The notes beneath the pieces are model-generated. The model was not told the DNA's origin and searched no databases. It saw nothing but the letters and a program-made list of their open reading frames with translations. A stretch of DNA of 64,000 nucleotides from Anaerolineae bacterium (lineage in GTDB: Bacteria > Chloroflexota > Anaerolineae > Aggregatilineales > Phototrophicaceae), in NCBI GenBank assembly GCA_022843745.1, contig JALHNB010000001.1, positions 276,019-340,018 of the forward strand. Reading direction: 5' to 3'. Numbering within the stretch: position 1 is the first letter of the stretch; each line of letters begins with the position of its first letter. The translations under genes and the position numbers were made by a program. Below are positions 5,729-37,873 of the stretch, one piece after another.

Positions 5729-6784
5729 CTAAAGTATTTCATCGACTAACTTCCCGACTAATCTTTCCAGGCTGTGATCGCGCACGACGATTTCGCGCAG
5801 TTCGCAGCCTAATTCGCGCCTCTGTTGCGGCGAACGCCTTGCGAGGTTTGCCAGTTTTTCGACCAATATTTCCGGCGAGTCCGGCGCGACCAGCAAATCA
5901 GCCCTCCATTTTTGCAGAACAGGTGTAAAAGCTTCGTTGGCGGTGATGACAGGCAGGCCGCAGCTCATCGCTTCCAATACCGCCTTGTCGATGCTGCCTG
6001 TATTGCTCAGGTTGACCATCACATCCGCCGCGTGGTAAATCGGCACGACCTGATGATATGGGATGCTGCCCAAAAATTCGACAACTTCGGTTAATTCGTT
6101 ACCTACGGCTTGATCGCGCAGTTGTTTTTCGTAAACCATATGCTGCGAGTCTGCCCCGCCGACGATGCGCAGGCGAAAATTTTGCTCCTGCTGCTTCAGT
6201 AGCCGCGCGGCCTCGATTAGAACTTCAATCTGTTTGATTGGGGCGATGCGGCTGACACTGAGAATAGTGAATACTTGATTATGCGGCGAGTCATCAGGTG
6301 AAAACATCTCGGTATCAATGCCATGTCCTGTGACGATGATTTTTCGGCTGGGGAGGCGAAAACTTTCTGGCGAAGCGGTGACAACATGATCGACCAGTTT
6401 TTCAGCCAGTTTCAGCTTGGTCGTCACCGATTTGTGCGCGTACCAGAGCGTCGTCGGTATGCGATATAACTTGAGCAGCGGGGCAGCCATCACCGCGAAC
6501 AACGGCTGCATGTGCGCGAAACAGGCATCATAGCGATTTCGGCGCAGCAGATCGCCCAAAATTCGATAAAATTCGAGGGTGCGGCGGGTATCCCCATAAC
6601 CGCGTTCTTTGCCAACGGAATACACCCACACATTTGGCGCGAGTTCCAGCCGACCCGACTGCATCGTCAATACGTCAATCTGCTGACAACGCTTCGCCAG
6701 CGCATTAATCCAGACGGTGGTGAAGCCTAGAATCGGATCATCGGCATCGGTGACGAGGTTGAACAGCAGCAGGCGCTCGATCAT
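5729..6784 (-). CDS. Family 4 glycosyltransferase
   Basis: A 351-residue GT-B enzyme starting MIERLLLFNLVTDADDPIL. The donor half has FTILSVSRIAPIKQIEVLIE, the ligand motif VEFLGSIPYHQVVPIYHAAD and a TGSIDKAVLEAMSCGLPVI version of the EX7E motif. The ATG overlaps the stop of the upstream glycosyltransferase (ATGA), and the next gene follows after 24 bases. It is likely cytoplasmic or membrane-peripheral and adds one residue of the glycan. Which sugar is not readable from sequence. Confidence 0.9.
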   Translation of the reverse strand: MIERLLLFNLVTDADDPILGFTTVWINALAKRCQQIDVLTMQSGRLELAPNVWVYSVGKERGYGDTRRTLEFYRILGDLLRRNRYDACFAHMQPLFAVMAAPLLKLYRIPTTLWYAHKSVTTKLKLAEKLVDHVVTASPESFRLPSRKIIVTGHGIDTEMFSPDDSPHNQVFTILSVSRIAPIKQIEVLIEAARLLKQQEQNFRLRIVGGADSQHMVYEKQLRDQAVGNELTEVVEFLGSIPYHQVVPIYHAADVMVNLSNTGSIDKAVLEAMSCGLPVITANEAFTPVLQKWRADLLVAPDSPEILVEKLANLARRSPQQRRELGCELREIVVRDHSLERLVGKLVDEIL

Positions 6785-33667: not shown

Positions 33668-34786
33668 ATGCGTCTGTTCATCGCAAGCGGCATTTTTCAC
33701 CCCGAAAGCGGCGGGCCAGCCACTTATCTCAAGGAATTGCTGCCGGAATTGCAACAGCGCGGTTGGGATGTGCGGGCGCTGACCTATGGCGCAGGTGAAG
33801 TCGATTCGTATCCTTATCCGTTGACGCGAATCCCGCGCACGAAACTGCGCTTGCCCCGGTACGCGCTGGCTGCCCGCCCGATGCTGCAATGGGCGAATCT
33901 GGTTTATGTCCATACACTTGCTCTGCCGCTAATCGGCGGAAACGGGCCGCATGTATTGAAAATTGTCGGCGATCAGGCCTGGGAACGCGCTATCCGTCGT
34001 GGTTGGATTCCGCTGACAACTGATATTGACCATTTTCAGACCGCGCGTGATAACTGGAAAGCGTCACTTCAAAAATCTATCCGCGCCGCCGAAGCCCGCC
34101 GCATGGATGGCATCATCGTCCCCAGCCAGTATCTTAAAAATATGGTCATGGGTTGGGGTGTAGACGCGACAAAAATTCAAGTCATCTACAACGCCCTGCC
34201 GCCCGATTACGCCGCTGCCCAGATGTCGCAGGCTGAAGCACGTTTAGAGTTGGGCCTGGGGCAAGAGCCAATATTATTCACCGCCGCGCGTTTAAACCCC
34301 TGGAAAGGTGTCGATCATTTGATTGCCGCGCTTGCCCGCATACCGGATGTGCGTCTGCTGGTGGCTGGTGACGGCGAAATGCGCGTTTCACTTGAACAGC
34401 AAACGGCGAAACTTGGCCTCAGCAATCGTGTCACGTTTTTGGGTAATCTGCCGCGCACGAAAGTCGCGACTTACATGAAAGCGGCTGATTATTTTGCGCT
34501 CTACTCAGGCTACGAAGGTTTATCGCATGTGCTGCTCGAAAGCCTGCGTGCCGGAACGCCTGTGATCGCCAGTGATAAAGGTGGCAATCCTGAAGTTGTT
34601 CGACACGGCATCAACGGCTTACTTGTCCCCTATATCAACCTTGATGCGCTCGTCACGGCCTTAACCGATGCTCTTCGCCCCGGAATGCGCGATTCCCTCG
34701 CAGCCAACAGCCAGCACGGTATGGAGCGCTTCGATTTCGCGCGTATGGTGCAGCAGACTCACGCCGCGCTGGAAGCGTATCTTTAG
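33668..34786 (+). CDS. Family 4 glycosyltransferase
   Basis: A 372-residue GT-B enzyme. It starts MRLFIASGIFHPESGGPATY, with the N-terminal Gly-rich acceptor loop; the donor half has ILFTAARLNPWKGVDHLIAA, FLGNLPRTKVATYMKAADYF and SGYEGLSHVLLESLRAGTPV. It is tightly linked to ychF (three-base gap), probably by shared transcription rather than function. Its TAG stop begins the repeat element at 34784. Substrates are unknown. Confidence 0.9.
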   Translation: MRLFIASGIFHPESGGPATYLKELLPELQQRGWDVRALTYGAGEVDSYPYPLTRIPRTKLRLPRYALAARPMLQWANLVYVHTLALPLIGGNGPHVLKIVGDQAWERAIRRGWIPLTTDIDHFQTARDNWKASLQKSIRAAEARRMDGIIVPSQYLKNMVMGWGVDATKIQVIYNALPPDYAAAQMSQAEARLELGLGQEPILFTAARLNPWKGVDHLIAALARIPDVRLLVAGDGEMRVSLEQQTAKLGLSNRVTFLGNLPRTKVATYMKAADYFALYSGYEGLSHVLLESLRAGTPVIASDKGGNPEVVRHGINGLLVPYINLDALVTALTDALRPGMRDSLAANSQHGMERFDFARMVQQTHAALEAYL

Positions 34787-34931
34787 CGGGTCAGCATTTC
34801 AGCCAGTCAGGCTTGTCAGCAAAATGCGAAGTGATGAGTAGAAAGTAATGAGTGATGAGTAAAAGAGAAATCTAAAACCCAGCACTCAGGACTTTAAACT
34901 CGGCACTAATTTTCAGACCTAAAAGCTGACA
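34784..34931. repeat. Modular octamer/heptamer element B, filling a convergent gap
   Basis: Starts at the TAG stop of the glycosyltransferase. Octamer-type TCAGC units lie at 34791, 34799, 34807 (TCAGG) and 34816. Then five AGTNNNN heptamers at 34830-34864 (AGTGATG, AGTAGAA, AGTAATG, AGTGATG, AGTAAAA). Then four heptamers in the opposite orientation at 34880-34907 (CAGCACT, CAGGACT, TTAAACT, CGGCACT). A single inverted GCTGACAAC at about 34925 closes it. The next gene's stop is at 34934. Confidence 0.9.
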
Positions 34932-34933
34932 AC

Positions 34934-35899
34934 CTACTCGTGCGCTGCAAAGAACGTCCAAATCGCCTCCGTCGCGTCCATGTCGGCGCTGGTGAGGCCG
35001 AGTTCGAACGGCGCTTCGAAGGGTCTGCCCGGCCAGGTATGCCCACCGTAGAAAACGCCGTAAAGTCTCACATCAGCGTTATTTTCGCATTCGCTAAAGC
35101 CTTCGCGCAAAATCCGCGTGTGGTCGTCTGGGTCTGTATCATCGAGCGTAGTGATGTCGCTCCCGGTGGTGCATCCATTGTGATTCGCCCAATAGGTGAG
35201 CGAATTGACCGCCGATAAATAGCCACCGCGCACACCGGCCCAGGGAACAACCGGATCATCTGTGCCTTGAATAATCAGCACTGGAATGGGCGCAGTATCC
35301 GCGCAAGTCGTGACGAGATATTCGGGAAATGTCGAAGCCACCGAAGCAATCGCCGTGATTTGATCGGGCAGTTCGCAGGCAAGCCGGAACGAGAGCATCC
35401 CGCCCATAGAATAGCCGGTGATATAGACATCTTCAATATCAAGTCTGGCTGAAACGAAATCGATAATTTTCGCCATGAAACCCACATCGTCGATATTGCC
35501 AACGCGCGAATCGCCAACGCGGCCATGATTCCACACGCGATTAATGCCATCCGGGTAAACGACGACAAATTTTTCTTGATCCGCCAGGTCGTTAAAGCCG
35601 GAAAAGGATTCGATCCACGCGCCACTTCCACCTGCGCCATGCAGCGCGATCACCAGAGGCATCGGCTCATTGTCGTCAATGTCGGGGATATAAATGCGAT
35701 AGACGCGCTCCACGCCACCATTCGTATCCTGTATGGTGTAGCTGCCTGCTTCGGGGAAATTAGACGTGGCTTCGGTGGTTTCCGGCGTAATTTCGGGCGT
35801 GACTTCGGGTTCTTCCGTCTCCTGATGATTGACGTTACCCACGAGGAACAGCGCAATCAACAATAAGCTCCATATCCTGAGCTTCATAAAACGATCCAT
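34934..35899 (-). CDS. Exported PHB-depolymerase/esterase-like alpha/beta hydrolase
   Basis: A 321-residue protein with a hydrophobic signal segment (about 8-21), a Glu/Thr/Pro-rich linker (about 25-48), then an LpqC/poly(3-hydroxybutyrate) depolymerase-type domain: PLVIALHGAGGSGAWIESF (oxyanion loop), nucleophile elbow TGYSMGGM (Ser164), GTDDPVVPW (acid) and YGGHTWPG (His). The family hydrolyses polyester or feruloyl-ester substrates outside the cell. AGAGG precedes the ATG by six bases. The gene is convergent with the GT gene and divergent from the acetyltransferase. Substrate is not predictable. Confidence 0.9.
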   Translation of the reverse strand: MDRFMKLRIWSLLLIALFLVGNVNHQETEEPEVTPEITPETTEATSNFPEAGSYTIQDTNGGVERVYRIYIPDIDDNEPMPLVIALHGAGGSGAWIESFSGFNDLADQEKFVVVYPDGINRVWNHGRVGDSRVGNIDDVGFMAKIIDFVSARLDIEDVYITGYSMGGMLSFRLACELPDQITAIASVASTFPEYLVTTCADTAPIPVLIIQGTDDPVVPWAGVRGGYLSAVNSLTYWANHNGCTTGSDITTLDDTDPDDHTRILREGFSECENNADVRLYGVFYGGHTWPGRPFEAPFELGLTSADMDATEAIWTFFAAHE

Positions 35900-35942
35900 A
35901 ATAGCCTCTTTTCGTCGAACAATTCTGCTGAGTTTACCTACG

Positions 35943-35991
35943 AATCGAGTAAAGCGTTCGATTTGTAAGGTGAAATAAGAACAATTGTTCT
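35943..35991. promoter_or_regulatory. Operator-like palindromes in a divergent promoter region
   Basis: AGAACAATTGTTCT at 35978-35991 is a perfect 14-bp palindrome. AATCGA at 35943-35948 and TCGATT at 35958-35963 form a second dyad with a nine-base spacer. Both lie between the esterase start (35899) and the acetyltransferase start (36080), so a repressor or activator could control either gene. No matching regulator is assigned. Confidence 0.45.
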
Positions 35992-36079
35992 GGTCCAGAA
36001 TAATTTGGTAAATGGTTCTAACTGGATTCTTAGTGGCTTGGAGATATAATCCTGATGTTCATTTTTGGGAGAACCTTTC

Positions 36080-36892
36080 ATGTCTATTCCGCCGCTTACA
36101 CCCGATCTCACTCGCGAAGTCCTCATCTTTTTGGGCGTAGATGTTGAACAGCCGAGTGTGGCACATCTCAATAAGCTCATGACGGCGTATACGGAGGCTG
36201 TCCCCTGGGAGAGTTTTTCGCGTATCGCTCGGCGGGCGCGTGTCACGAACACAGCCGATTGCCCGCGCTGGCCGGAGATTTTCTGGCGGGAGGCGATGGA
36301 TTTGGGCGGAGGCAGCACGTGTTTCGAGAGTAACTACGCATTTTTCAGCTTACTTCGCGCCCTCGGCTATGACGGCTATCTGACCATCAATAATATGGGC
36401 GAGACGGTTGGCTGCCACAGCGCGATAGTCATCAAGCTGGATGATGAATCCTGGCTGGTGGATGCAGGCCTGCCAATTTATGTCGCGCTGCCGCTTGATC
36501 CGTCAGCAGTTACGCAGCGTTCGAGCCGCTTTCATACCTATACCGTTCGCCCCGGTGGTGTCAATCGGTATCAGATCGAGCGTGATTTCCACCCGAAGCC
36601 TGTTGCGTTCACGCTTCTTGACCTGCCCGTCGAGAATGACCCTTATCGCCAGCGTATGACCGATGATTATGGCGAAAATGGCATTTTTCTCGATATGGCG
36701 ATTGTCGTCAAAGTGATTGATGGGCAAGTCCGGCGCTTCAACAGTTCTGAAAGTCCGCCGCAAATTCAGGTTTTTGAGAACGGTGAACGCACCGATTACG
36801 AAATTACCGTCGATATAGCCGAGGCCATCAGCCGACAATTCAGCATGGATGAGGATGTGGTACGCGCGGCACTGGAGGCGCTGGGGAAGTAG
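36080..36892 (+). CDS. Arylamine N-acetyltransferase-family protein
   Basis: 270 residues from ATG 36080, preceded by GGGAGA at eight bases; an upstream TTG is less likely. It has the NAT cysteine-protease-like triad: Cys81 in GGGSTCFESNYAFFSLLRAL, His113 in VGCHSAIVIKL and Asp128 in SWLVDAGL. NAT enzymes transfer acetyl (or other acyl) groups from CoA to arylamines or to amide-forming intermediates. The C-terminal third (about 190-270) diverges from characterised NATs. The gene stands alone. Its TAG stop begins repeat element C. Confidence 0.85.
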   Translation: MSIPPLTPDLTREVLIFLGVDVEQPSVAHLNKLMTAYTEAVPWESFSRIARRARVTNTADCPRWPEIFWREAMDLGGGSTCFESNYAFFSLLRALGYDGYLTINNMGETVGCHSAIVIKLDDESWLVDAGLPIYVALPLDPSAVTQRSSRFHTYTVRPGGVNRYQIERDFHPKPVAFTLLDLPVENDPYRQRMTDDYGENGIFLDMAIVVKVIDGQVRRFNSSESPPQIQVFENGERTDYEITVDIAEAISRQFSMDEDVVRAALEALGK

Positions 36893-37045
36893 CGGTCAGC
36901 TTGTCAGCGATCAGCTTTTTAGGCTTGAGGGGCAATAGTGCCGAGTTTAAAGTGCTGAGTACCGAGTTTCTGAATAATTGCTCAGACTCAGCACTCGGTA
37001 CTTTTTACTTCGCACGTTGAATTTTAGCTGACAAGCTGAGACTCT
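36890..37045. repeat. Modular octamer/heptamer element C, inverted, filling a convergent gap
   Basis: Outer arms: TCAGC at 36896, 36904 and 36911, and GCTGA at 37027 and 37035; TCAGCTTGTCAGC (36896-36908) and GCTGACAAGCTGA (37027-37039) are a perfect 13-bp inverted pair. Inner arms: five AGTNNNN heptamers at 36937-36971 (AGTGCCG, AGTTTAA, AGTGCTG, AGTACCG, AGTTTCT) and three inverted ones at 36982-37002 (TCAGACT, CAGCACT, CGGTACT). AGTGCTG and AGTACCG occur on both sides but in swapped order. Confidence 0.9.
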
Positions 37046-37054
37046 AATCCGCTA

Positions 37055-37873
37055 TCACCCCCGCTGCCACGCGCGACGGCGCACTTCCAGCGGCGAGAGT
37101 TTGGTTGCCTGCCGGATGCGGCGCGAAAAATGATAGCTGGTCTGGAAGCCGCAGCGCTCGGCGATCATGCCTACCGATAGACCTGTATTTTCCAGAAGCT
37201 CGATTCCCATCGTGACGCGCCGTTCCCAAACATAGGCAATCGGTGTGGTGTTCATTTCAGACTGAAATAATCGAATCAGATGCGATGGGCTGACAGCGGC
37301 GGCACTGGCAAGCGATTCCAGCGTCAGCGGTTCACCCAGGTGGGATTGGATGAACTGGCGCACACGCTCAATTGCCGGGTGCGGCGTAGTCGAGGCATTA
37401 CCCATTAAGAGGCGTTCGCCCTCGCCGATATAACGCCACAACATTTGCGCGCCTAACGCTTTCAGCATCGCATCCGCCGTAGACAGAGTCGTCGTTCGCA
37501 GCGCCAGTGCATTGAACGTGAGATCGGTCATCGGCTGTGAAAGGGGCAGCGGCCAGGGTAAGCGTCGCAGGCGAGCATCCAGTGAATCGGATATATTGGG
37601 AATCGTCATGTGGATAAAGCTGTGCCAGGTATCGCTATCGGCAGCGAAAGCGAAGCGTTCTTTGTGACCGGGGAAAAGGATTGAAACGGTCCCGGCAGGT
37701 GCATAGGATGGTTGATTGTCAACCCAGACGGTCATTTCGCCCGTGTGGATCATGACCAACTGGGTATAGTTTTGCAGACGCGGGCCGAATGTGCCACCCG
37801 GCGGGTATACAATATCCCCCACCTGGATAAACTCCGGCCATAAAAGCGCATCCTGATCCTGCGAAATGGTCAT
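37055..37873 (-). CDS. AraC-family transcriptional regulator
   Basis: A 272-residue protein with an N-terminal cupin-like sensor domain (about 1-150: GDIVYPPGGTFGPRLQNYTQ, FPGHKERFAF) and a C-terminal double helix-turn-helix (LESLASAAAVSPSHLIRLFQ and VGMIAERCGFQTSYHFSRRI with RQATKLSPLEVRRR). It is divergent from the PhyH dioxygenase gene across a 105-base gap containing a direct repeat, the classic arrangement of an AraC activator and its target. Ligand is unknown. Confidence 0.93.
   Translation of the reverse strand: MTISQDQDALLWPEFIQVGDIVYPPGGTFGPRLQNYTQLVMIHTGEMTVWVDNQPSYAPAGTVSILFPGHKERFAFAADSDTWHSFIHMTIPNISDSLDARLRRLPWPLPLSQPMTDLTFNALALRTTTLSTADAMLKALGAQMLWRYIGEGERLLMGNASTTPHPAIERVRQFIQSHLGEPLTLESLASAAAVSPSHLIRLFQSEMNTTPIAYVWERRVTMGIELLENTGLSVGMIAERCGFQTSYHFSRRIRQATKLSPLEVRRRAWQRG

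Follow-up and report, generated by a model that had tools for sequence, protein, structure and literature searches.

Elements B and C between converging genes

The DNA analyzed here is a 64,000-nucleotide window (C1:276019-340018) from the 8-Mb draft genome of an uncultured Chloroflexota bacterium, designated G000. For one protein of the window, the closest named relatives (about 72 to 74% identity) come from metagenome-assembled genomes of Anaerolineae/Chloroflexi, among them one labeled Aggregatilineales. Two gaps between converging genes in this window contain inverted repeats, termed elements B and C. Element B lies between a glycosyltransferase gene, whose stop codon is at 34784-34786, and a converging esterase-like gene with its stop at 34934. 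Element C lies between an N-acetyltransferase-like gene (stop codon at 36890-36892) and a converging AraC-type regulator gene (stop at 37055).

Element B (34784-34936) has the reverse orientation of the family consensus and is matched on the minus strand by the covariance model R1 (C1:310839-310931, 92 bits). It fills its gap, with its outermost units overlapping the TAG stops of both neighboring genes. As read from the sequence, the outer left arm (34785-34819, plus strand) consists of the AGC octamers AGCGGGTC, AGCATTTC, AGCCAGTC, and AGGCTTGTC and a final AGC, and the inner left arm (34830-34864, plus strand) consists of AGT heptamers with the free letters GATG, AGAA, AATG, GATG, and AAAA. 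The inner right arm (34877-34907) carries AGT heptamers on the minus strand with GCCG, TTAA, CCTG, and GCTG, and the outer right arm (34924-34936, minus strand) is TAGGTTGTCAGCT, which includes the TAG stop of the esterase-like gene. Element C (36890-37054) is in the forward orientation and is matched by R1 on the plus strand (C1:312949-313043, 79 bits). Its first unit, TAGC, holds the stop codon of the N-acetyltransferase-like gene. The outer left arm of TCAGC octamers (36896-36908, plus strand) forms a perfect 13-bp pair with the outer right arm (37027-37039, minus strand), and between them lie an inner left arm of AGT heptamers (36937-36971, plus strand; GCCG, TTAA, GCTG, ACCG, and TTCT) and an inner right arm (36982-37009, minus strand; AAAA, ACCG, GCTG, and CTGA). 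The 17-mer AGTGCCGAGTTTAAAGT begins at 36937 in C, and its reverse complement occupies 34891-34907 in B.

The first-pass annotation had described both gaps as holding two-level inverted repeats, with octamers outside and heptamers inside, a 13-bp pair in C, and a shared AGTGCCGAGTTTAAAGT, and this anatomy was confirmed. Two small corrections concern the inner arms, in which 10-bp perfect pairs were found: the inner pairing in C is register shifted, and the inner arms of B are just 74% complementary. Compared with shuffled sequences, the predicted RNA fold of B has a z score of -3.1 and that of C has z scores of -7.2 and -7.4 on the two strands.

The two layers are also what stands out against chance. 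All 64 triplets were scanned at periods of 4 to 15 nt for arrays of four in a row, over 930 kb of contigs picked irrespective of matches. The commonest arrays were AGT with a period of 7 (rank 1, 16 sites) and AGC with a period of 8 (rank 2, 12 sites), so that the AGT heptamer and AGC octamer layers of the first-pass annotation are exactly the top two short-period signals. Over the whole G000 genome, five consecutive AGTNNNN units occur 69 times, compared with once for the reversed pattern. The sequence thus shows a tandem 7-nt period beyond chance, together with intergenic inverted pairs, as in the class of degenerate heptamer repeats.

A hairpin occupying the gap at converging gene ends could be taken for a bidirectional intrinsic terminator serving both genes. 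This is very improbable for elements of the B/C type. Neither B nor C was found to contain a terminator-like site; both lack a GC-rich stem with an immediate T-run, and the inner stem has, on both strands, a T-run on its 5' side and an A-run on its 3' side, which is the reverse of the intrinsic terminator layout. The majority of copies, moreover, lie in tandem gaps, and relatives of the element sit within operons, in the rplF-rplR and ybaB-recR gaps. A search of the whole window against Rfam gave no match at the gathering score.

A dispersed, oriented repeat family at gene 3' ends

Elements B and C belong to a single oriented family of hairpin repeats and are inverted relative to each other. 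A search of the G000 genome with the R1 covariance model returned 83 matches, which collapse to about 46 distinct loci; among 61 genomes belonging to the family, 20 had relatives, G000 included. Nineteen aligned G000 copies, from many contigs, fit a single oriented consensus. Its left half consists of TCAGCNNN octamers, TTTTT, the heptamers AGTGCTG AGTTTAA AGTGCTG AGTGCTG AGTTTYR, and GAAT with a short loop; its right half consists of TTTTACT CAGCACT CGGTACT CAGCACT TTRTACT CAGCACT, AAAAA, and GCTGANNN octamers. In well-preserved copies, the free letters of the left-arm heptamers read GCTG-TTAA-GCTG-GCTG, and those of the right arm, from outer to inner, read GCTG-NNAA-GCTG-RCCG-GCTG-AAAA. In 32 of 35 pairs, the AGT arm comes first and the ACT arm follows the loop.

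This orientation changes how the units shared by B and C are to be read. The first-pass annotation had proposed that units move as modules, since B and C share a 17-mer and since two heptamers in C appear on both sides in swapped order. Because C runs forward and B backward, B shows AGTGCCGAGTTTAAAGT as its reverse complement; RCCG is a normal right-arm unit, and the swap in C is explained by one missing heptamer together with letter changes. Orientation and one missing unit account for the pattern, and module shuffling between the arms was rejected.

Other repeats were seen in the same genome. A second heptamer vocabulary of the TAGTCGTTAGTCGGTAGTC type, without a TCAGC layer, occurs at C2:142093, C11:53169, C3:132557, and C38:59394. 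Several elements (C45:43821, C8:190542, C74:14289, and C36:47412) have a third layer, made of GGACTGA heptamers, that is external to the AGT heptamers and in some cases present in both arms. Gaps with heptamer arrays at C11:53169, C50:9760, C86:5182, and C20:64625 also hold a further dispersed repeat, of the GTAGGGGCGCAATAA / TAGGGGCAGGTCTCAGACCTGCCC type.

All of the arrays found in G000 are intergenic, lying in 49 gaps, with none inside called genes. Gap classes were assigned with a purpose-written, simple open reading frame caller on sequence chosen in part because of matches; on that basis, the 32 classifiable loci comprise 20 tandem, 11 convergent, and 1 divergent gap. Convergent gaps are enriched (11/32 loci, compared with 12.8% of gaps longer than 60 bp; P = 0.0015), and divergent gaps are depleted (1/32, compared with 25%; P = 0.0018). 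When the expectation is instead based on how many gene 3' ends each class of gap contains, 29% are expected to be convergent and 35% are observed (P = 0.43). The earlier idea that such repeats belong to convergent gaps therefore stands as an enrichment but not as an effect of convergence itself, as 20 of the 32 loci are tandem and the placement follows gene 3' ends.

Distances to the flanking codons place the elements at stops. In tandem gaps, the median distance is 11 nt from the element to the upstream stop and 37 nt to the next start (Wilcoxon P = 0.056), and in convergent gaps the distance from element to stop is likewise 11 nt. The stops beside elements are TAG in 22 of 35 cases (63%), compared with 308 of 1,209 (25%) elsewhere (P = 5e-6), and are part of TAGC in 12 of 35, compared with 84 of 1,209 (P = 4e-6). 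TCAGC units lie preferentially 7, 15, 23, and 31 nt from the stop, that is, in octamer phase with it, so in many cases the stop serves as the first octamer. B and C appear to fill their gaps because each end of the element begins at a stop. Relative to transcription, orientation in tandem gaps is about even by hand count (9 same, 11 opposite), which counts against a role as RNA hairpins.

Dispersed copies that share an asymmetric consensus, loop, and outer arms and occur in both orientations could be those of a mobile element resembling MITEs or REPs, mobilized in trans by RAYT/Y1 or another transposase, for which 3'-end gaps would be permissive landing sites; the avoidance of divergent gaps is in keeping with this. 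Such an origin is nevertheless unlikely. The ends of the element are variable octamer runs and not fixed termini, there is no GTAG-tagged foot, and no transposase-bearing element was seen near the copies inspected. G000 has one clear match to Y1_Tnp (C101), but across the 61 genomes this domain does not track the arrays: strong matches occur in the array-free genomes G003, G055, and G056, whereas the array-rich G012, G037, G023, and G029 give only weak matches in very long frames. On this distribution, no link to RAYT could be established.

Unit turnover and arm coupling in related genomes

The first-pass annotation had proposed testing whether unit order varies between strains that retain the same gene pair, and turnover of units was observed in sister genomes with the pair retained. 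In G012 and G037, which are about 90% identical, arrays are retained in the same gaps; the AGT cores are mostly kept, and the four free letters and the number of units differ.

By inspection, about 13 of the 17 species in the genus of G012 and G037 carry, in the gap of the rplF-rplR operon, a phased hairpin that starts immediately behind the stop codon, with unit types that vary by species (GAGTACTG, TTCCG, CAGTNNC, or the AGC type). Among 14 species, the pairing of a species' own two arms averages -33.0 kcal/mol, compared with -22.6 kcal/mol when an arm is paired with those of other species; the own-arm value was reached in 0 of 20,000 permutations. Over a long evolutionary span, the two arms of this hairpin have changed in concert. 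Independent drift of both arms from an ancestral palindrome predicts no difference between own and other arms, in contrast to this result. The gap is 3 to 27 nt in all relatives from other genera in which it could be read by script, which makes a single gain followed by retention probable; insertion more than once at a hot spot is a less favored alternative. The species that share the hairpin have L18 proteins 72 to 85% identical to that of G071. In another genus, the ybaB-recR gap contains three unit vocabularies in three species, each matched in both arms, with a remnant in one species and nothing in others.

The copies within G000 do not show this coupling. Among oriented copies, own arms pair at -30.5 and arms of other copies at -31.6 (P = 0.93); an earlier arm-pairing test on unoriented copies also found none (P = 0.985), and double changes were present in 0 of 13 pairs of the core alignment. 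No selection on the stem is thus visible there, which may mean that the G000 copies arose recently, are decaying, or experience no selection on structure.

Uncoupled arms in G000 mean that a neutral or mutational origin stays a serious rival, one that is possible if somewhat doubtful. The arrays would then be neutral or selfish repeats, built up through slippage of the polymerase by 7 or 8 nt at a time, kept palindromic by template switching (quasipalindrome correction), and persisting after stop codons as the least harmful sites. Presence or absence and changes in unit number between close species accord with this, as do sharp contrasts within a genus (89 array matches in G005 and 0 in G033) and a 7-nt period that is general while its fixed triplet depends on lineage; heptamer excess has also been tied to polymerase slippage in literature discussed in PMC4692102. 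Slippage alone, however, would give identical units, yet AGT and AGC are fixed while the other letters vary, and copying between sites is needed for the copies to share one oriented consensus and a conserved loop. Nor would it readily account for a hairpin that persists at one essential-operon gap across species as diverged as their L18 proteins indicate.

Array counts diverge extremely within genera (89 to 0 in G005 and G033, 132 to 4 in G021 and G038, and 1 to 134 in G010 and G036), which suggests bursts or losses. In three other Chloroflexota (G120, G130, and G139), TGA every 7 nt, scanned as a control pattern, is far commoner than AGT every 7 nt. Heptamer arrays with another fixed triplet thus seem to be present in other lineages, and AGT was rejected as a universal triplet. 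A tandem repeat, CCGGACACGCAGAAG, was found in G037 C52 (L188), near 6010-6260, where the sister species G012 has an unrelated spacer.

Relation to known repeats and a proposed role

Cyanobacterial STRR heptanucleotide repeats are tandem heptamers in intergenic DNA, to which the present arrays are likened by description only. The nearest known counterparts are degenerate intergenic heptamer inverted repeats, such as GGGANTN in Xanthomonas and TAACTGA in Beggiatoaceae. In Xanthomonas, (GGGANTN)n arrays are degenerate intergenic heptamers with 70 to 75 inverted pairs per genome, usually occupying the corresponding gap of related species but differing in length and letters; they lie nearer the end of the upstream open reading frame and favor convergent (16%) over divergent (7 to 8%) gaps; Nostoc has a degenerate heptamer, GGGGA(C/T)T (PMC4692102). 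The present arrays resemble both in having degenerate 7-nt intergenic units with fixed and free positions, and resemble those of Xanthomonas also in inverted pairing, same-gap conservation, and gap preference. They differ in that AGT and not GGGA is fixed; units such as AGTGCTG and AGTTTAA have no G-tracts, and a G-rich, quadruplex-type unit is absent. Additional here are an outer octamer layer, a loop within a shared consensus of defined orientation, and the use of the stop codon as first unit. TAACTGA direct repeats of Beggiatoaceae, Cyanobacteria, and Bacteroidetes are likewise intergenic 7-nt tandem units that change in 7-nt steps between close strains, and their reverse complement, TCAGTTA, contains AGT; in Beggiatoaceae they lie mostly just upstream of start codons, whereas the present units form inverted pairs just downstream of stops and have four free letters (PMC4679880). 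REP/BIME and RAYT-mobilized palindromes are similar in being extragenic hairpins that are dispersed, lie at gene ends, and are able to act in RNA. REPs lack tandem units, are 20 to 40 bp long, and carry a GTAG or CGTC foot (PMC3733652); in contrast, B and C are about 150 to 165 bp, are built of units without such a foot, and have no RAYT link that could be found. Within the parts of the open-access heptamer and REP literature that were searched, the octamer layer, AGT core, embedded stop codon, and arm coupling at a conserved gap are not described.

Anatomy, copy number, position at stop codons, and lack of a terminator layout are shown for B and C as dispersed hairpin-forming intergenic repeats; they are interpreted, with a probability of about one half, as REP-like 3'-end RNA hairpins renewed by gain and loss of 7- and 8-nt units. 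Each element consists of outer octamers (TCAGCNNN), inner AGTNNNN heptamers, and an asymmetric loop and is anchored at gene 3' ends, where a gene's own TAG stop often serves as its first unit. In transcripts from either side, the arms are predicted to fold back into a long, interrupted stem directly after the stop codon. The most likely role would be that of a REP/BIME-type hairpin in a 3' untranslated region or between cistrons, protecting the upstream mRNA end from 3'-to-5' decay; alternatively, the hairpin may mark a processing site. In either role it would act without ending transcription. The arrays appear to evolve in two ways: entire units of 7 or 8 nt are added or lost, and letters drift in the stretches separating the fixed AGT and AGC cores. 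At long-lived sites, the arms may be held complementary by selection on the stem or by arm-to-arm copying, for example, by template switching. Coupling was demonstrated at one gap, rplF-rplR, in one sister genus, and could be a mutational by-product or reflect reinsertion of a species' own repeat family.

A more speculative extension is that the hairpin renews itself: arrays would be seeded on the stop codon, with TAGC as first octamer, would grow by unit copying, and would be kept complementary by template switching or selection, the hairpin lasting for the age of a genus though its vocabulary is replaced. If this is true, structure is inherited and sequence is not. Heptamer repeats are known from several phyla without a settled function. 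Orthologous gaps that keep a hairpin with changed letters make selection on RNA structure and mutational maintenance of palindromes directly separable, and the presence of TAG in the first unit, together with the location at gene 3' ends, offers a concrete, testable role and a possible route by which such arrays start.
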